IMG/VR virus record: IMGVR_UViG_3300030104_004030
Span: 1 to 27,650 of that record
Source: a virus
DNA: 27,650 nucleotides
Reading direction: 5' to 3' (one strand)
The position numbers were made by a program, and so were the translations under genes. Every line of letters begins with the position of its first letter. The first letter of the stretch is position 1. Below, one piece after another: positions 11,704 through 27,650 of the stretch. The notes under the pieces are model-generated. The model did no database searches and was not told the DNA's origin. It worked only from the letters and a program-made list of their open reading frames with translations.

Positions 11704-12318
11704 ATGAACGATATATTTGACGATATGGAAGCCGACTCAAATCAAGAGTCTTTATTTTCCAAACATAATTTAACTAACGAGGACCTGTCTACCCTCACAG
11801 GTATGGCTGATGCTATTATTAGACAGGATGAGTACACGAAGAAAGTTGAGGGCGAGCTAAAGGAAGCCAAAAAGAAGCTTCTTAAAATGACTGACGAAGA
11901 TCTACCTACCATGATGACTGAGGCTAACACCATTAAGTTTGTTATGGAAGATGGGTCTGAAGTATCTATTAAGCCACAGTACGGCGCCTCTATTCGCGTT
12001 GATAATAGACCAACGGCGTATCAATGGCTTAGGGACAATGGCTTTGGGTATCTCATTAAAAACCAAATTATAGTTAGCTTTGGTGTTGATGAAGATGAGA
12101 TAGCGACTGAATTTATGAATTTCATAGAGGGTCATCTCAAGGTTAAGTACCAAAAAGAAAACTTAGTTAGTCAAGTCGAAAAGATTGAGCCTATGTCTTT
12201 ACGAACCTGGGTTAAGGAGCGTAATGAAAACGGTGAAGAATTTCCCATGGAATTGTTCGGAGCTTTCATAGGTCAACGTGCTGTTATTAAAAAAGGAGTT
12301 AAAAATGGCGGAAAGTAA
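11704..12318 (+). CDS. Conserved phage protein, first gene of the replication operon
   Basis: A 204-residue acidic protein starting at an ATG with AAGGAG seven bases upstream. The N-terminal half is a charged helix (EGELKEAKKKLLKM) followed by a block with DEDLPTMMTEAN. The C-terminal half contains RPTAYQWLRDNGFGYLIKN and ends with EPMSLRTWVKERNENG, then FPMELFGAFIGQRAVIK, both of which look conserved across phages. I recognise the type as a phage hypothetical protein usually next to an SSB-like gene but know no assigned function. No catalytic or zinc motif is seen. It overlaps the next gene by 14 nt, so a partner or accessory role for SSB is a reasonable guess only. Confidence 0.78.
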   Translation: MNDIFDDMEADSNQESLFSKHNLTNEDLSTLTGMADAIIRQDEYTKKVEGELKEAKKKLLKMTDEDLPTMMTEANTIKFVMEDGSEVSIKPQYGASIRVDNRPTAYQWLRDNGFGYLIKNQIIVSFGVDEDEIATEFMNFIEGHLKVKYQKENLVSQVEKIEPMSLRTWVKERNENGEEFPMELFGAFIGQRAVIKKGVKNGGK

Positions 12319-13087
12319 GAAACAGGTAGCAGAGCCTAAATCTGCAAACGTAGTCCCATTGGAATCATTATTTGAGGCTGATGCGGGTAAAGGTAATGAG
12401 AATATTGGGCAGGATGATCTTGCGCTTCCTTTTCTTAAAATCTTGTCTGGATTAGACTCTATTCTTGATGACCACGAAACGGCAAGGAAGGGTGACATAT
12501 ATAATACTGTCACAGGCGGCGTTTACAAGGGCAAGGAAGGCATTAACGTAGTGCCCGTAGCCTACCAGAGGCGTTTTATACAATGGGCTCCTAGAGGCCA
12601 GGGTAGCGGCGCTCCGATAGCTATCTTTGCACCTAACGAAGATAGACCTCAGACAGAAAGATCCGCTGAGGATAACAAAGAGTATGTTGTTGGCGGCACG
12701 GGGGACTATATCGAGGAAACCCATCAGCACTTTGTTATTGTTCTTAATGAAGATGGGTCTGCCGAAACTGCTTTGATAGCGATGAAGTCTACGCAGTTAA
12801 AGAAGTCTCGAAAGTGGAACAGTATGATTGCGTCTGTTACATTACAGGGAAAGAATGGACCTTTCCAACCGCCACGTTTCAGTCATGTGTATCAACTCAA
12901 AACACTTGCTGAGGAAAACAGTAAGGGTAGTTGGCATGGATGGGAAATGTCGCGTGGAAACATCATTCAGGATGCTACTATATACGGTCAGGCAAAGAAG
13001 TTTGCCGAAAGTATTAGCTCAGGTGATGTAGTTGTTAAGCATACAGAGGGTTCTGAGCCTTCTGGTGATGATAACGTACCGTTCTAA
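12305..13087 (+). CDS. Putative single-stranded DNA-binding protein
   Basis: A 260-residue protein, start taken at the ATG at 12305 because AAAGGAG lies just upstream; an in-frame ATG at 12278 has no comparable site. The core begins with DDLALPFLKILSGLD and continues through beta-rich sequence (GINVVPVAYQRRFIQW; HQHFVIVLNEDG; AETALIAMKSTQLKKSRKWN). The last residues are Ser/Gly/Asp-rich and end exactly in DDNVPF, closely matching the DDDIPF tip by which bacterial SSB recruits partners. Together with its place ahead of primase, helicase and polymerase this supports coating of single-stranded DNA and tethering of replication proteins. The core is not a classical OB fold that I can trace, so the family assignment stays open. 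Confidence 0.72.
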   Translation: MAESKKQVAEPKSANVVPLESLFEADAGKGNENIGQDDLALPFLKILSGLDSILDDHETARKGDIYNTVTGGVYKGKEGINVVPVAYQRRFIQWAPRGQGSGAPIAIFAPNEDRPQTERSAEDNKEYVVGGTGDYIEETHQHFVIVLNEDGSAETALIAMKSTQLKKSRKWNSMIASVTLQGKNGPFQPPRFSHVYQLKTLAEENSKGSWHGWEMSRGNIIQDATIYGQAKKFAESISSGDVVVKHTEGSEPSGDDNVPF

Positions 13088-13094
13088 ACTTTAG

Positions 13095-13129
13095 AGGGTG
13101 GTGGGGTTACTCACCACCCTTGTTTATTG
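13095..13129 (+). terminator. Weak intra-operon terminator or attenuator hairpin
   Basis: AGGGTGGTG (13095-13103) pairs with CACCACCCT (13112-13120) around an 8-base loop, followed by the T-rich TGTTTATT. The stem is strong but the T tract is interrupted. It could lower readthrough from SSB into the primase gene or protect the SSB mRNA 3' end. Confidence 0.5.
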
Positions 13130-13137
13130 GAAAGACT

Positions 13138-14685
13138 ATGACAAATCATACAAAAAAATTTGCTTCCATATTTGACGGTTTAAAGCTCGCTTACGGCACG
13201 TTTAAGATAGAAAAGAAACAATTAAACGGTAAGAGCACGGGCCGAGCTGCGATTATACGCGAAACACGGACCACGGAATTATGGGAAGGACACCTCTCCG
13301 GCAAGGGAAGAGGTGTGGGTATCATACCTATAAACGAAGATAATAAATGTGTATGGGGTTGCATCGACGTAGATCAATATCCCCTGGACCATAAGTTATT
13401 AATAAAGAAAATAAGAAAGATAAAGCTGCCTTTGGTGATATGCCGGTCCAAATCCGGTGGAGCACATTGTTTTTTATTTGCAACCGATTGGATTGATGCC
13501 AAGGATATGCAAGAAACACTACAACAGATATCAGCTGCTCTTGGTTATGGCGGCAGTGAAATCTTTCCAAAGCAGATAAAACTTAACCTAGATAGAGATG
13601 ATGTTGGTAACTTCCTTAATCTACCGTACTTCGATGCGGAAGAGGGCCTGCGGTATGCTATCAAAGATGACGGCACAAGCGCCACGCTTGAAGAGTTCAT
13701 AGCCCTATACGAAAAGCATAAGCAAACGCCCGAGCAGATAACTAAGCTACAGTTAGGCGAGGATAAAAAGCAGAACACCATGAACGACGGTCCCCCTTGT
13801 CTGCAAATACTGGCAAGAAATAAAATATCAGAGGGCGGTAGAAACAATGGCTTGTTTAACCTTGGCGTATACTTGCGTAAAGCCTATCCCGATACATGGG
13901 ACGCAGAGCTATTGACCTATAATATGCAGTATCTGGACCCACCTTTACCGCTAAGTGAGGTAAATATTGTCGCTAAGCAGTTGGAAAAGAAGGATTATGC
14001 GTACAAATGTAGTGATGCGCCTATTAATGCTCATTGTAATAAGACGTTGTGCCTAACAAGAGCCCACGGCATAGGTGCCGCGGTCCAAGGTGCCGTTATT
14101 GCCAACTTACGAAAGTATAATTCCATACCTCCCGTGTGGTTTTTAGATGTTAATGGTGAGCCCCTGGAGATGGATACCGATGCCCTTCAAAACCAAGCTA
14201 CGTTTCAGAAATCATGTATGGAGCAGTTGAACTTCATGCCACGGTCCGTGAACAAACCCGTGTGGGAAAGCCGAATAGCGGCGCTTCTCGGTGAAATGCG
14301 TGACAATGATAGTGCTATTATAGAGGTGGCTGAAGATGCTAGTGTCACCGGACAGTTTTATGATTACTTAGAAGAGTTCTGTCAGCACAGACAACAAGCC
14401 GAGGATAAAGAAGAGATACTTCTAAAACGTCCTTGGACAGATGAGGACGAACAAAAAACCTATTTTAGGTTAAAAGATTTTGATGCGTATCTTAAACGTA
14501 ATAAGTTTTTTGAATACAAAACGTATAAGATGGCTCAGAGGCTACGGGACAGAGGTGGCGAAAGTGTGGTACTAAAGATTAAGGGAAGACCCGTCCGTGT
14601 ATGGCGGATACCTTCTTTTGATAATGGTGATATTACGCTCTCTGCACCTGATTTTGGTATAAATGAACAAAAAGAGGTATTCTAA
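13138..14685 (+). CDS. AEP-superfamily DNA primase (PrimPol/TOTE-type)
   Basis: A 515-residue primase of the archaeo-eukaryotic type, which makes primers for replication. The start is taken at ATG 13138, with GGAAAG just upstream; a TTG at 13120 is less likely. Catalytic signatures: CIDVDQY with metal-binding Asp77 and Asp79, then SKSGGAH with His110, then EIFPKQ and GNFLNLPYF, the pattern seen in TOTE-type primases. A helical PriCT-like region (PLPLSEVNIVAKQLEKKDYA) leads into a cluster C291, H299, C300, C305 that may bind zinc. The C-terminal 190 residues have no P-loop, so this is a primase without a fused helicase. It sits between SSB and the small genes ahead of UvrD and PolA. Confidence 0.85.
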   Translation: MTNHTKKFASIFDGLKLAYGTFKIEKKQLNGKSTGRAAIIRETRTTELWEGHLSGKGRGVGIIPINEDNKCVWGCIDVDQYPLDHKLLIKKIRKIKLPLVICRSKSGGAHCFLFATDWIDAKDMQETLQQISAALGYGGSEIFPKQIKLNLDRDDVGNFLNLPYFDAEEGLRYAIKDDGTSATLEEFIALYEKHKQTPEQITKLQLGEDKKQNTMNDGPPCLQILARNKISEGGRNNGLFNLGVYLRKAYPDTWDAELLTYNMQYLDPPLPLSEVNIVAKQLEKKDYAYKCSDAPINAHCNKTLCLTRAHGIGAAVQGAVIANLRKYNSIPPVWFLDVNGEPLEMDTDALQNQATFQKSCMEQLNFMPRSVNKPVWESRIAALLGEMRDNDSAIIEVAEDASVTGQFYDYLEEFCQHRQQAEDKEEILLKRPWTDEDEQKTYFRLKDFDAYLKRNKFFEYKTYKMAQRLRDRGGESVVLKIKGRPVRVWRIPSFDNGDITLSAPDFGINEQKEVF

Positions 14686-14933: not shown

Positions 14934-15126
14934 GGAGCGTAACAACGAGATATACGCTCTTAGAACAGATAAATTAATGACGCTTACGGCTATTGGTAAG
15001 ATGTACGGTCTTACCCGTGAGAGAATCCGTGTAATTGTAAACAAAGTAGAAGAGAAGAATGCAAGCAAAGATCTTCAGAATATACGGTCCCCCGGGGACC
15101 GGGAAGACAACAACGCTATTGAATAA
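14917..15126 (+). CDS. Stand-alone sigma-region-4-like helix-turn-helix protein
   Basis: A 69-residue protein; the ATG at 14917 is preferred because GGAGG lies nine bases upstream, with an alternative ATG at 14893. Residues 21-45 (MTLTAIGKMYG, then LTRERIRVI) match the helix-turn-helix of sigma-70 region 4.2, which contacts the promoter -35 element; the TRERIR core is nearly identical to bacterial sigma factors. There is no region 2 and thus no complete sigma factor. Its last 68 nt are read in a second frame as the start of the UvrD helicase, so the C-terminus (about residues 48-69) is constrained by that overlap and lacks clear character of its own. It could bind DNA as a regulator or compete with host sigma; both are inference. 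Confidence 0.7.
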   Translation: MQWKYKERNNEIYALRTDKLMTLTAIGKMYGLTRERIRVIVNKVEEKNASKDLQNIRSPGDREDNNAIE

Positions 15127-16582
15127 AGTGGACGAGGCGTTGAGCCAGGGCATTCTACCATCAAAAATAGGATACTTTGCCTTTACGCGACAAGCTGCCC
15201 ACGAAGCAATAGAACGAGCGTGTCAACGGTTTGGCCTCGAAGAGAGCCAATTACCATGGTTTCGTACACTCCATAGCTTTGCCTTGCGTCTATCCGGCAT
15301 CCGCAGCGAGCAAGTGATGCAATCAGAGCATTACAAAGAGCTCTCACAAGCCATAGGTATAGATATAGGGGTCGATAAAAGCAATTCAGAGGACAATATA
15401 ATAGAATCTAACGCTGCTAATGACCCTTTTTTGGCTATTATCAACTTAGCTAGATTAAAAAAAGTGTCTTTACGCAAGGAATACAACAGTTCTAACACCG
15501 ATATTGACTGGGTAACCCTGTCCTATGTGGCTGAAGCGCTTACAAACTACAAAAAAAGAATGAAACTATATGATTTTACCGATATGCTAGAGATGTTTGT
15601 AAATCAAAGTTCTATGTTCTGTCCCAATCTCAGCGTTAGTTTTATTGATGAAGCCCAGGATTTGTCGCCCCTACAATGGGACGTTGCTCATATTATAGAA
15701 CAGCACTCTGATAAAATATACTGCGCCGGTGATGATGACCAGGCGATATATAAGTGGGCAGGCGCTGATGTAGATCATCTAATAGGGCTTAACGGGGGTT
15801 ATGAAGTGCTTGAACAGTCCTATCGTGTGCCCCAAAGTGTTCATGCCCTGGCCTCGCGTATATCTAAGCGTATACATAAACGTGTGCCAAAGAGCTATTT
15901 GCCCAAGCCAGAAGAAGGTATCGTGAAGCGTGTTACAGACATAATGGACCTTGACCTATCCGAGGGGTCGTGGCTGATATTAGCCCAGGCTAACTATTTG
16001 CTGTATGATTGCGTCGATAACCTACGCAGTAGAGGACATCTTTTCGCCTATAACGGCACACGGTCCATATCGCAGAAGATAAGCGAGGCGGTTAACGGGT
16101 GGGAACAAATGCGTAAAGGTAAAGTAATAACAGCTCACGCTGCCCGAACCGTGTATAATTATATGTCCGTCGGTAACAGAGTGAAGCGCGGCTTTAAAAA
16201 GCTGCCCCATGTTATGGATGATGATCTACTAGGCTTAGAGGAATTACAGAAAAACCACGGGCTCTTAGCCACTAAGGATATGATATGGCACGAAGCCATG
16301 GATAAAATACCAGATGGAGAACGAGCTTACATCACCGCATTACTGCGGCGTGGTGAGAAATTTAATAGTACGCCCCGTATAGAACTATCCACGATTCACG
16401 GGTCAAAAGGCGGTGAAGCCGATAATGTTGTGTTGTTTACCGATGTATCTCCCGCAGCATCAAAAGCAGCAGAAGACGATCCAGACGAACTTCACCGGGT
16501 ATTCTATGTGGGAGTAACAAGAACAAGACAAAATCTATATTTAATCGAGCCAGAAGACGCATTGAGGAGTTACAGCATATGA
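15059..16582 (+). CDS. UvrD/Rep-type SF1 DNA helicase
   Basis: A 507-residue 3'-5' helicase of superfamily 1A. Motifs in order: Walker A GPPGTGKT at 10-17; motif Ia AFTRQAAHEA; TLHSFALRL; motif II DEAQD at 197-201; motif III GDDDQAIYKWAGA; motif IV QSYRVPQSVHALA; motif V STIHGSKGGEADNVVL; motif VI VTRTR from 486. All key residues are present, so it should be active. It is shorter than UvrD (about 720 residues), with reduced 1B/2B insertions, as in other phage versions. It begins inside the preceding gene and ends in an ATGA overlap with the next. In the absence of a DnaB-type gene here it may be the replicative or repair unwinding enzyme of the phage. Confidence 0.92.
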   Translation: MQAKIFRIYGPPGTGKTTTLLNKVDEALSQGILPSKIGYFAFTRQAAHEAIERACQRFGLEESQLPWFRTLHSFALRLSGIRSEQVMQSEHYKELSQAIGIDIGVDKSNSEDNIIESNAANDPFLAIINLARLKKVSLRKEYNSSNTDIDWVTLSYVAEALTNYKKRMKLYDFTDMLEMFVNQSSMFCPNLSVSFIDEAQDLSPLQWDVAHIIEQHSDKIYCAGDDDQAIYKWAGADVDHLIGLNGGYEVLEQSYRVPQSVHALASRISKRIHKRVPKSYLPKPEEGIVKRVTDIMDLDLSEGSWLILAQANYLLYDCVDNLRSRGHLFAYNGTRSISQKISEAVNGWEQMRKGKVITAHAARTVYNYMSVGNRVKRGFKKLPHVMDDDLLGLEELQKNHGLLATKDMIWHEAMDKIPDGERAYITALLRRGEKFNSTPRIELSTIHGSKGGEADNVVLFTDVSPAASKAAEDDPDELHRVFYVGVTRTRQNLYLIEPEDALRSYSI

Positions 16583-16833
16583 ACAGGAAGCAAATACTAG
16601 CAAAAGCCGAGAAGATGATTAACGGTCCACGAGCCAAAGCCTACGGCGATGCTCACGAAAACCACAAGCGTATAGCTAAAATGTGGTCCGTAATACTCGA
16701 AAGAGAGGTTACCGTATCACAAGCCTACCAATGTATGATAGCCGTAAAGCTCTCACGGCTCATAGAAACACCGGACCATGAGGACAGTTGGCTCGATATC
16801 TGTGGCTACGGCGCCCTTGGTGGAGAAAAGTAA
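16579..16833 (+). CDS. DUF6378-like small protein
   Basis: 84 residues starting in an ATGA overlap with the helicase gene. The sequence has the pattern of a phage family I know as DUF6378: KAEKMINGPRAKAYGD, then ENHKRIAKMWS, then VKLSRLIETPDHEDSWLDI, then GYGALGGEK at the end. The conserved Asp/Glu/His positions in a small all-helical protein recall MazG-like nucleotide hydrolase folds, but I cannot show catalytic residues. The gene runs into the polymerase start by a TAATG overlap, which suggests a role close to dNTP supply or replication. The family name is from memory of the pattern. Confidence 0.75.
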   Translation: MNRKQILAKAEKMINGPRAKAYGDAHENHKRIAKMWSVILEREVTVSQAYQCMIAVKLSRLIETPDHEDSWLDICGYGALGGEK

Positions 16834-18725
16834 TGGCGTTGCAGTTAGCGTTTGACACGCCAAAGTCTGAATGGGTGCCCCCTAGTGAGCTCCCAAACAT
16901 CTTTGAGGCCAGGCAGATAGCCATAGATGTTGAAACCCGTGATCCAAACATAAAAAGCAGCGGTCCCGGATGGCCCACCGGCGATGGATACGTTGTCGGT
17001 TATGCCGTAGCCGTTGACGGGTGGTCCGGGTATCTACCCATACGCCATGAACATGGCGGTAACCTTGATGAACGCATCGTCAATAACTGGCTCAAGAAAG
17101 TATTTGAAAGCCCGGCAGATAAAATTATGCACAATGCCCAGTATGACGCCGGATGGATACGCCGCATGGGGTTTACTATCAAGGGACGCATTATAGATAC
17201 CATGCTCATTGCCGCTTTACTTGATGAAAATCGGTTCAGCTACAGTCTTAATGCGCTCGCTTACGACTATCTGGGTAAGGTAAAGTCAGAGAAAGGGCTC
17301 GTAGAAGCCGCTAGAGGCTTTGGTTTAGACCCAAAAGCCGATATGTGGAAGATACCGGCTATGTATGTAGGTCCCTATGCCGAAGGAGATGCCGATCTAA
17401 CCCTACAGTTGTGGAACTATTTCTCTGCTACTCTCTCCAAGGAAGAACTATGGCCCATCGCTAATCTTGAACTAGCGCTGCTGCCGTGCCTAATAGATAT
17501 GACATGGCGCGGTGTCCGTGTTGACCAGGATAAGGTCGAGAGAACACGCAACACGCTTCTCAAACGTGAGAAAGAGTTATTAAAAAAGATAAAAAGTCTG
17601 GTGGGAACCGATATAGAGATATGGGCAGCAGCGTCCATATCAAAAGCATTTGATAAACTTAGTATAGACTATCCACGCACAGAAAAAGGCGCCCCGTCGT
17701 TCACGAAACAGTTTCTAACAGAACATCCCCACGAATTACCGCAACTAATCGTGCAAACACGCAACCTAAACAAAACTTCCGGCACGTTTATCAATACCAT
17801 AATGAAGCATTGCCACTCCGATGGACGTATACATAGCCACATAAACCAAATTCGCTCTGATGATGGCGGCACCGTATCCGGTAGAATATCCATGAATAAC
17901 CCTAACTTGCAGCAAATACCGGCTAGAGATCCAGAGTTAGGTCCTATGATTCGCTCTCTGTTTCTCCCCGAAGAAGGTGAACAATGGGCTGCTATAGATT
18001 ACTCGCAGCAAGAACCACGCATCTTGGTCCATTATTCGTATATATATGGGCAAAGCCGAGGCATACCGCTTAAAGGTGTAGAAGAATTTGTCCACGGCTA
18101 CCGGAACGACGCCAGTATGGATTTTCATACCATGGTAGCAGAAATGGCAAACATCCCCAGAAAACAAGCCAAGACAATTAATCTAGGGCTTATCTACGGC
18201 ATGGGCGTTACAAAAATGTCAGAACAACTCGATATATCTATTGATGACGCTAAAGATCTAGTGCGCCAGTATAACGATAGAGTGCCCTTTGTCCGCGGAC
18301 TAATGACCGGGGTGCAGAATAGACTCAACGAACAAGGCGGAACCGGGGCCATACGCTCTCTCCTGGGAAGAAAATGCCGGTTTGATCTATGGGAACCCGA
18401 TACGTTTAAGATGAACAAAGCATTGCCGTACAAAGACGCCGTGCAAGAGTATGGGCCCACAACCAAATTAAAGCGAGCCTACAGTTATAAAGCGCTAAAC
18501 AGACTCATACAAGCCTCCGCCGCCGATATGACCAAAAAAGCCATGGTTGATATATACAAAACCGGGCAGCTACCTCTTATCCAGATACATGATGAGATAG
18601 CTATGTCAGTAAAAAGCCAGAAAGATGCAAAAAACATTGCCAACATTATGGAAAATGCTGTAAAGTTGGAGATACCAAATAAGTGCGACGTTGAAATTGG
18701 CCCCGATTGGGGCTCTGCCAACTAA
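16833..18725 (+). CDS. polA: Family A DNA polymerase with 3'-5' exonuclease
   Basis: A 630-residue replicative polymerase of the Pol I family. The start is the ATG overlapping the previous TAA, with a GGAGA site upstream; an earlier in-frame ATG at 16788 lies inside the upstream gene. The 3'-5' exonuclease is intact: D32 and E34 (DVET), N101 to D105 (NAQYD), Y182 and D186 (YAEGD). Polymerase motif A is DYSQQEPR with D389; motif B is R443 and K447 leading to LIYG; motif C is HDE at 586-588. The position equivalent to E. coli Phe762 is Leu451. There is no 5'-3' exonuclease domain. It closes the replication operon; a strong terminator follows 33 bp later. Confidence 0.97.
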   Translation: MALQLAFDTPKSEWVPPSELPNIFEARQIAIDVETRDPNIKSSGPGWPTGDGYVVGYAVAVDGWSGYLPIRHEHGGNLDERIVNNWLKKVFESPADKIMHNAQYDAGWIRRMGFTIKGRIIDTMLIAALLDENRFSYSLNALAYDYLGKVKSEKGLVEAARGFGLDPKADMWKIPAMYVGPYAEGDADLTLQLWNYFSATLSKEELWPIANLELALLPCLIDMTWRGVRVDQDKVERTRNTLLKREKELLKKIKSLVGTDIEIWAAASISKAFDKLSIDYPRTEKGAPSFTKQFLTEHPHELPQLIVQTRNLNKTSGTFINTIMKHCHSDGRIHSHINQIRSDDGGTVSGRISMNNPNLQQIPARDPELGPMIRSLFLPEEGEQWAAIDYSQQEPRILVHYSYIYGQSRGIPLKGVEEFVHGYRNDASMDFHTMVAEMANIPRKQAKTINLGLIYGMGVTKMSEQLDISIDDAKDLVRQYNDRVPFVRGLMTGVQNRLNEQGGTGAIRSLLGRKCRFDLWEPDTFKMNKALPYKDAVQEYGPTTKLKRAYSYKALNRLIQASAADMTKKAMVDIYKTGQLPLIQIHDEIAMSVKSQKDAKNIANIMENAVKLEIPNKCDVEIGPDWGSAN

Positions 18726-20839: not shown

Positions 20840-21253
20840 ATGACTAAAAGATCTATTGAAAGAAAAGCTGAAAAGTTTGATAAAATTATGGCAAGAAAAG
20901 TTAAAACTATTCTGTCAAAATTAGCAGAAAAAACTTTGTGGAATATTTTTGGAGATGCGTATGCTATTTTGCCAAAGAAATTTTTTACGTCAAAAGATAA
21001 CTTTGAAGGTAAAGGTAATTTACCAAGAATGTATGTAGAAGACTTTGTTCACGTTTACAACAGTAAATCTATTGGTACAATTTATGTAAATGGTAACCCC
21101 GTAAAATCGTTAGAGGGTATATTAGCCGCCAGAATTGTAGAAGATTTAATAGACAAATTTGGTATAGAACACGAATCTACCGCTTTTTTGCATGGTAAGA
21201 AGGCAATTCATAGCATTAAAACGGGTGCTTTAATTGAATATTTAAAAAGCTAA
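20840..21253 (+). CDS. Protein of unknown function under the strongest promoter
   Basis: 137 residues, ATG at 20840 behind AAGGAAAAAA. The N-terminal 40 residues are strongly basic (TKRSIERKAEKFDKIMARK), followed by a compact mixed region with strands (SIGTIYVNGNPVKS) and helices (LAARIVEDLIDKFG), ending IEYLKS. The basic start could bind nucleic acid. It is a single-gene unit with a perfect sigma-70 promoter, a structured leader and its own terminator, which points to high early expression. No family is recognised. Confidence 0.68.
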   Translation: MTKRSIERKAEKFDKIMARKVKTILSKLAEKTLWNIFGDAYAILPKKFFTSKDNFEGKGNLPRMYVEDFVHVYNSKSIGTIYVNGNPVKSLEGILAARIVEDLIDKFGIEHESTAFLHGKKAIHSIKTGALIEYLKS

Positions 21254-21259
21254 AACCAT

Positions 21260-21286
21260 GGGGCGGTAGCAATATCGCCCCTTTTT
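21260..21286 (+). terminator. Rho-independent terminator with GCAA loop
   Basis: GGGGCGGTA (21260-21268) and TATCGCCCC (21273-21281) form a 9-bp stem with one G-T pair, a GCAA tetraloop and five T after it. Confidence 0.92.
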
Positions 21287-21287
21287 A

Positions 21288-21450
21288 GTTACATGGTTAC
21301 ATATATATAGCCAAAATAAAAAAAATATTTTTTTTCATTTGTACCCGTAACCGGTGTAACCGCGTAACCAGGCTCTGAAGCACCTTATTTATATATATAT
21401 AATGGTTACACGAAAGTTACACTACTCAAAATAGAGGTGTAACCGGTTAT
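21288..21450 (+). repeat. GTAAC iteron cluster, candidate replication origin or operator array
   Basis: Eight copies of GTAAC or its complement GTTAC lie in this gene-free stretch: starts at 21288, 21295, 21347, 21356, 21364, 21404, 21416 and 21439. The central three are direct repeats of GTAACC spaced 9 and 8 bp. Four copies extend to GTGTAAC or its complement. GTAACCGGTTAT at 21439 is nearly palindromic. AT-rich runs lie at 21301-21340 and 21387-21401. Iterons plus easily melted DNA are the classical look of an origin bound by an initiator; a repressor array is the alternative. The rest of 21254-21593 holds only a terminator, poly-T/A tracts and a promoter. Confidence 0.6.
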
Positions 21451-21534
21451 TGTACAATATGTTATATAAGGGGCGTTTTGGTTTTTTATTTTTTTTTTTT
21501 CTGTCTATATATAAAGGGGATAAAAAGAAAATGG

Positions 21535-21593: not shown

Positions 21594-22166
21594 ATGACAA
21601 ATAAGCTAAAATATACTATTATTAAGTGTGAAAACGGCGTCGGTGAGTGGGAAATAGCAACTGATGACGGCGGTTTTGTAGAATCCACCGGTGAAACCTT
21701 TGATACCCGAGAAGAGGCTGAACGGCACATAAAGGACTTACAATTCGACGATAAACCCGTACTAGATGTAGGTAAATGGACGCAAATAAAGAAAGATTTG
21801 CTGCAATTAGTATATAAAAATGCTATTGATTCCGGCTACACAGAAAACCCAAACGACCCTTATACCTGGTCTAAGTTTAAAACTGACGATACTTTGGAAG
21901 AAATAGATAAGGTCCTTAGCGATCATTTTGTAAAAGATTTACCTAAAAACAGACCCACTCAAGTCTATCTTGATGTTAAGTGCGATAGCTTTGTGTCCCT
22001 GGAAACTAATTTAACTACTGAGTCTGCTGAACAAATGACAGAAGAAAGTATGTATGATTTCTTTGTGGATTTTTATAAAGAGAAAGCCATAGAGAAATAT
22101 AAAAGACGCTTTGAGGACGCAGATTTTGTTTTTGAAGTAGATTTCCATTACGTCGAAGATAATTGA
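21594..22166 (+). CDS. Acidic protein of unknown function
   Basis: 190 residues from an ATG behind AAAGGAGAAAACT. The N-terminal 50 residues form a strand-rich start that ends in a helix of a type common in small phage proteins (GETFDTREEAERHIKDL), possibly a short domain of its own. The middle has a run with YTENPNDPYTWSKFKTDD, and the end is helix/strand and very acidic. No catalytic or metal motif is seen and I recognise no family. The strong acidity would allow DNA mimicry or binding to a basic host protein, but nothing proves it. It heads a four-gene unit that ends at the terminator at 22699. Confidence 0.65.
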   Translation: MTNKLKYTIIKCENGVGEWEIATDDGGFVESTGETFDTREEAERHIKDLQFDDKPVLDVGKWTQIKKDLLQLVYKNAIDSGYTENPNDPYTWSKFKTDDTLEEIDKVLSDHFVKDLPKNRPTQVYLDVKCDSFVSLETNLTTESAEQMTEESMYDFFVDFYKEKAIEKYKRRFEDADFVFEVDFHYVEDN

Positions 22167-27153: not shown

Positions 27154-27221
27154 GCCTTTTTAATAGTTAAACACGCCGAGGACCGCCGCCCAGGAGCAGC
27201 TCCAAACGTACCGGCAGCCGC

Positions 27222-27309
27222 AGATCCTGGCGCAGCTGCACCGGTTTCTGGTCCAGATCCTGGCGCAGCTCAGCGCAGATCCTGGCTAGATCCTGGCGCA
27301 GCTGCACCG
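27222..27309 (+). repeat. GC-rich repeats with 11-bp spacing
   Basis: AGATCCTGGC starts at 27222, 27255, 27277 and 27288, so the intervals are 33, 22 and 11 bp. Three copies continue as GCGCAGCT, two of them as CAGCTGCACCG. A partial copy (GCAGCTGCACCGGTTT) lies at 27342, and a related pair (GGTCCTGG) at 27472 and 27483 is again 11 bp apart. There is no frame with a start codon. The region 27154-27650 holds no gene that I can support. Confidence 0.8.
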
Positions 27310-27377
27310 AGAACCGGGAATAAAGCAGCGTTAATTTTGATGCAGCTGCACCGGTTTTTTTATTCAGGAGTTTTCGT

Positions 27378-27510: not shown

Positions 27511-27535
27511 GACCCCCGTTTATCGGGTCAAGTTT
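27511..27535 (+). terminator. Possible terminator hairpin
   Basis: GACCC (27511-27515) pairs with GGGTC (27525-27529), the stem extended inward by CG/CG across a one-base bulge, followed by AAGTTTTT. No gene is seen upstream, so it may end an unseen transcript or be part of the repeat region. Confidence 0.4.
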
Positions 27536-27650
27536 TTAAGGCTTAAAACGGCGGTTTCCGATCCCAGGTTCGAGCGGCGCGGTTGTTGGCTACGCTTGCA
27601 AGGGCCATGTTTTTCACGAATAATTACCAGAAAAATCATATGAATGTTTC

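Follow-up and report, generated by a model that had tools for sequence, protein, structure and literature searches.

A conserved six-site repeat array in marine phages whose word covaries with residues of a phage primase: a candidate iteron-type replication origin

In the SaPI Rep and SCCmec Cch2 proteins the C-terminal domain of the initiator recognises short iterons (PMC7581432), and Rep proteins of the ColE2 type are primases of the archaeo-eukaryotic type (AEP) which bind their own specific origin and prime synthesis there for a polymerase of family A (PMC4538821). A third system, TcpK with the oriT of pCW3, uses a winged helix to read tandem 9-bp boxes, the beta-wing lying in the major groove (PMC6137059). 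We analysed a repeat array in a virus record of 27,650 bases (hereafter the window, meaning this whole stretch of DNA), whose replication module is on the plus strand. The locus resembles SaPI Rep and Cch2 in having short repeats and a putative mobile-element initiator whose C-terminal domain would recognise them, and Cch (5dgk) matches our model of the window primase; however, the SaPI Rep/Cch2 initiators carry a helicase domain and their origin is directly downstream of the initiator gene, whereas the window primase has an AEP domain and a weak PriCT-1 match, the helicase is encoded by a separate gene and the array is kilobases away from the primase gene. The AEP primase and family A polymerase setting is also that of ColE2, but ColE2 is a small plasmid, while the locus studied here has six iterons in a phage genome of approximately 55 kb and the specificity-linked residues are in a predicted wing. 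With TcpK the locus shares a predicted winged-helix fold and tandem boxes of about 9 bp, and base reading by a beta-wing is proposed here from a model and from covariation; TcpK serves conjugative transfer as a free-standing dimer, in contrast to the candidate reader of the window, which is a domain of a primase.

In Cluster A mycobacteriophages, many stoperator sites change in concert with the repressor between close relatives. Those sites are dispersed and belong to repression and immunity, whereas here a single compact array and a primase seem to be involved. Initiator C-terminal domains reading short repeats and AEP primases binding their own origin are therefore already known; what is different here is an AEP primase encoded far from its putative origin, an apparent wing-based specificity and a fast, concerted turnover of the word.

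The repeat cluster and its conservation

An earlier note, made from the letters of the window, had proposed a cluster of eight GTAAC/GTTAC words with AT-rich DNA as a candidate phage replication origin. All eight words were found (Table 1), spanning 156 bp in a gene-free stretch (the ORFs end at 21253 and the next one starts at 21594), and the cluster holds four of the five GTGTAAC extensions of the window. When 300 copies of the window were generated with a second-order Markov model, their densest 170-bp stretch had five words at most, and the 45 words present in the whole window, against 48.7 expected, indicated that the word is clustered and not generally common, that is, not equally dense elsewhere. 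The three phased direct repeats described in the note are part of a larger arrangement that includes six of the eight words, in the order three direct, two inverted and one direct. The two outer copies, at 21288 and 21296, are probably accessory inverted sites: among relatives with copies at this place, 77 had an inverted match, 14 had the opposite orientation and 8 had both. In some close phage pairs these outer copies failed to switch with the other sites.

Table 1. Positions of the features of the window considered in this study
Feature	Position	Strand	Basis or remark
Primase gene, proposed initiator and array reader	13120..14685	+	AEP domain 51-172, weak PriCT-1 234-286
C-terminal winged-helix domain of primase, residues 396-521	14305..14682	+	Predicted structure
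Specificity-linked V484 (tracks word bases 2-3) and K486 (tracks bases 5-6)	14569..14577	+	Covariation; first beta-wing strand
P491, second wing strand	14590..14592	+	Weaker, loose association with base 6
UvrD-type helicase, member of primase replication module	15059..16582	+	
Family A DNA polymerase, same replication module	16788..18725	+	Served as query for relatives
Hairpin with T run closing upstream gene, probable transcription terminator	21260..21286	+	Sequence; same place in relatives
Probable accessory inverted copy, upstream of array	21288..21292	-	Orientation bias in relatives
Second probable accessory inverted copy, upstream of array	21296..21300	-	Orientation bias in relatives
Left AT block: TATATAG then A/T run	21301..21341	.	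Sequence; recurs in relatives
Iteron a1, GTAAC, first of direct triple	21347..21351	+	Fixed architecture in relatives; concerted switching
Iteron a2, GTGTAACC, 9 bp past a1	21356..21360	+	Fixed architecture, concerted switching
Iteron a3, GTAACC, 8 bp past a2	21364..21368	+	Fixed architecture, concerted switching
AT-rich spacer separating the two iteron sets	21369..21404	.	Sequence; length class varies in relatives
Inverted iteron b1, core of minus-strand GTGTAACC	21405..21409	-	Fixed architecture, concerted switching
Inverted iteron b2, 11 bp past b1	21416..21420	-	Fixed architecture, concerted switching
Iteron c1, GTGTAACC, lone direct copy	21439..21443	+	Fixed architecture, concerted switching
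Right AT block and CTATATATA element	21480..21515	.	Sequence; recurs in relatives

The search with the polymerase gave 80 contigs, 23 of which had the same arrangement downstream of the polymerase gene, and further array loci were added by pattern scans of the virus collection. The array, with its fixed spacings, was found in over 150 marine viral contigs, the number of distinct arrays also being above 150. The cluster, whose lack in relatives that keep the flanking genes would according to the note have spoken against an origin, was conserved in relatives even where the flanking genes are not. In the conserved layout the words of the direct triple are separated by 9 and then 8-9 bp, those of the inverted pair by 10-14 bp, and the last direct word is located about 22-24 bp beyond. 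The a3-to-b1 spacer of the relatives is either 40-44 or 51-55 bp long, a difference of one helical turn. With a detector that knew the layout and not the word, most relatives were seen to have the array ahead of the gene for the small terminase (TerS), and 600 kb of Markov control sequence gave 0 matches. Of 94 relatives, 71 have TATATAG at about -47 and 43 have AATATTTTT at about -24; beyond the array, AATATTTTT and TATATAG appear again, about +52 and +72 from c1. The array region is AT-rich (GC 0.23-0.34 vs 0.38-0.51 for the genomes) and each complete genome with a detected array has one such array. Short direct and inverted repeats at fixed spacing and AT-rich DNA in or beside them, two features of an iteron origin, are present.

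The named phages nearest to the window by polymerase (50-56% identity) are Phage DSL-LC04, 023Pt_psg01 and the Pelagibacter phages HTVC023P and HTVC027P, and the array detector found no array when these four were scanned. HTVC023P has CTAGGAAA repeats upstream of TerS (L302:11600-11800), unmatched by the detector, which are perhaps a distant equivalent of the array with another word. Neither a search of Rfam nor a search for direct relatives of the two window proteins flanking the cluster gave a match, and no paper describing these repeats was found in the literature search.

Arrays of the same kind, with three direct and two inverted GTAAC/GTTAC words, were also observed in bacterial contigs (Thauera, Oxalobacteraceae, Thermoclostridium and others) and in other phages (L481, L500, L445, L492, L452, L136, L165 and L276). 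One gene family is common to the array-adjacent position of L136, L165 and L276, and the gene of L165 at this position resembles a DUF927 or D5-type primase-helicase. Elsewhere in the window, a SNF2-type helicase is encoded on the minus strand, and positions 12278-13087 encode a Pam3 gp34-like protein whose relatives have an acidic DDVPF tail, as in single-stranded DNA-binding proteins.

Concerted change of the word and the search for its reader

The word differs between phages and agrees across the six sites of each array (GTAACC, GTTACC, GTAACA, GTTACA, GTAACG, GTAACT, GTAAT and GGTAC). At base 6, which played no part in finding the arrays, the six-site agreement was 5.18, against 3.68 when sites were shuffled between phages. 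The agreement at base 3 is inflated for the loci found by pattern scans, because these scans picked arrays with equal centre bases; loci found through the polymerase or TerS are free of this selection. Some pairs, L042/L189 and L175/L023 for example, were near-identical around the array and different at every array site. Mapped on the TerS tree, the centre bases of 108 arrays required 27 changes at the least. The switch of the word at all six sites in concert among close relatives suggests that something in trans reads it, and the same was indicated by the concerted change at bases 3 and 6, which was seen across all 15 site pairs and was equal between pairs, arguing against stems.

Several neighbouring genes were considered as the reader and rejected. 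With words different at all sites, L042 and L189 had TerS sequences that were 100% identical, and in other pairs the identity was almost complete. A terminase that stays constant under a changing word is not its reader, and in the column screen of TerS the MI was 0.28 of 1.06 bits, no column explaining the word. Site specificity, in short, does not follow the small terminase. The gene just upstream of the array accompanies different words, and no residue of DUF7227, DUF932, the SSB-like protein or the 83-aa protein beside the primase tracks the word. Presence or absence of accessory genes tied no family to the word, tiny sets excepted. Comparisons of whole-gene identity and nearest-neighbour concordance did not reveal the reader, so small is the number of residues that matter.

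When the proteins of 22 families of neighbouring genes were screened column by column, only a column of the primase was fully informative on the centre base (MI 0.99 of 0.99 bits), the highest of 400 label shuffles being 0.82. This column corresponds to residue 484 of the window primase. Among 38 distinct primase-array pairs, V484 was accompanied by TA in 20 of 20 cases, L, T or S484 by TT in 14 of 14 and Q484 by GT in three of four. As for residue 486, K was found with CC or CT (29 of 29), failing to distinguish C from T at base 6, R with CA (8 of 8) and A with TC (1 of 1). There were 11 word changes and 11 residue changes in these pairs, and all six supported independent pairs agreed (p 0.031). 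The rule, set beforehand, gave the correct centre base for L576, G012, G018, G019 and G015, which were outside the training pairs, most test cases being akin to training cases; the prediction of base 6 was wrong for G019, which carries T. A third class was formed by Q484 with GGTAC in G016, G021 and L565, and two Q484/S486 genomes that seemed to lack an array had the same layout with GGGAT/GGTAT. The sole conflict was G006 (same contig as L055), in which Q484 and K486 were found with five GTTAC and one GGTAC, and such a mixed array may be a specificity switch in progress. Mixed arrays of five GTTAC sites and one GGTAC were observed in the related loci L055, L363, L368 and L370.

Covariation with residues 484 and 486 of the primase thus matched the putative origin repeats to a candidate initiator, and the phage primase is in our best reading the reader of the array. 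The AEP primase domain was recognised (PF22548, E 1.3e-10), and the PriCT-1 match was weak (PF08708, E 0.0033, below the Pfam cutoff). The distance from the primase gene to the array is 5.8-9.9 kb in the relatives, and this separation counts against the reading. In an AlphaFold model of the C-terminal domain (mean pLDDT 72), the full-length model being too poor for use, the predicted fold was a winged helix with the order H-S-H-H-S-S and residues 484-491 were placed in its two wing strands. The top-ranked solved fold was TcpK bound to oriT (Z 7.2, identity about 11%), and Cch (5dgk), the initiator of SCCmec, came fifth with its winged helix (Z 6.7). When viral models were searched, two phage primases matched at E <1e-4, and DUF927-type and VapE-type proteins matched weakly. 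These middling Z values support the fold and not common descent. On the basis of the model, we propose that the beta-wing carries the base specificity.

The proposed origin and alternative readings

The covariation of the word with specific primase residues, the clustering of the word and the conservation of the cluster in relatives together support the origin proposal of the earlier note, and covariation of this kind fits an origin read by its own initiator. We consider it likely, from sequence comparison, that the cluster is an iteron-type replication origin bound by the phage primase. The AEP primase would bind the six GTNACN words through its C-terminal winged-helix domain, wing residue 484 reading bases 2-3 and residue 486 bases 5-6, and the copies of the primase bound on the triple would make contact, over the AT-rich spacer, with those on the inverted pair. 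The flanking AT blocks could then be melted and primer synthesis begun by the primase, after which the UvrD-type helicase and the family A polymerase of the same module would take over. A change in the wing would be accompanied by a change at all the sites, so that phages of one species would differ in origin specificity.

The GC-skew check suggested in the note did not mark the array: the cumulative minimum was about 5 kb downstream in most near-complete genomes, near TerL and the parS site described below. A second or different replication start is therefore possible.

The repressor array that the note had allowed for survives as an operator array, in which the primase or a linked protein would control transcription of the downstream operon instead of the start of replication. 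The array is indeed intergenic and ahead of an operon, in many cases flanked on each side by TATATAG-like elements, and covariation identifies a candidate reader and not the consequence of its binding. However, the proposed reader is a primase within the replication module, there is one such array per complete genome where it was detected, and an origin accounts better for the AT blocks on both sides and for an AT-rich spacer framed by two sets of iterons; we favour the origin and regard the operator reading as improbable.

That the array is a packaging start, a pac or cosB site to which the small terminase binds, is quite improbable, in spite of its position. TerS (Terminase_2, phrog_51) was in the contig for 106 of 137 array loci, its start almost always 40-270 bp downstream, and in L110 a TerS of a different family adjoins the array. 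Yet in addition to the identical or nearly identical terminases found with different words, TerS is about 5 kb off in the clade of the window while the array stays in place, and the contig ends, inspected by eye for a sign of cos ends, showed no obvious pile-up at the array. Pairing of direct and inverted copies in RNA or single-stranded DNA, compensatory changes giving the concert, is hardly tenable, for although shuffled sequences fold less well than the single strand (z -2.7), four direct copies against two inverted ones leave at least two direct copies unpaired yet changing too, direct-direct pairs covary as much as the others with no pair-specific extension, and the link with the primase residues would remain unexplained.

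With the array read as an origin, the word would have changed at least 27 times, all the sites together, which raises the question of what drives a fast turnover of specificity in lytic phages. It is possible, if somewhat doubtful, that these phages hold interchangeable origin specificities comparable to plasmid incompatibility groups, each made of one or two wing residues and six iterons and turning over quickly within a species, that the drive is escape from satellites or co-infecting phages sharing the origin signal, and that a simple code relates wing residues to bases. An origin and its reader can in this way be proposed from sequence alone for abundant and mostly uncultivated marine phages (relatives of HTVC023P), together with a residue-to-base rule open to a check by a single binding experiment. 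The approach of aligning variable DNA words and screening neighbour genes for a predictive column is applicable to other orphan repeat arrays.

A perfect bacterial parS palindrome, TGTTTCACGTGAAACA, was present once in each of about 60 fetched family loci and twice in L197, the chance expectation for a 16-mer such as this being about 3e-5 per genome. It precedes TerL, except in the clade of the window, where it precedes TerS; examples of loci with the palindrome are L346:14476-14491 and L010:14095-14110, and also L379, L384, L392 and L401, and the window itself ends inside parS (ATGTTTC, in 27580-27650). In five of the six near-complete genomes bearing parS (G001, G002, G003, G012 and G014; loci L379-L396) the GC-skew minimum was about 0.02-0.7 kb from it, as measured by hand. 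A conserved GGGNCCC...TATCGGGTCA element was found about 100 bp before parS (L346:14340-14370, L315:14640-14655 and window 27515-27535), and the gene-free stretch near the end of the contig, at 27170-27350 of the window, contains repeated GATCCTGGCGCAGCTGCACCGG units.
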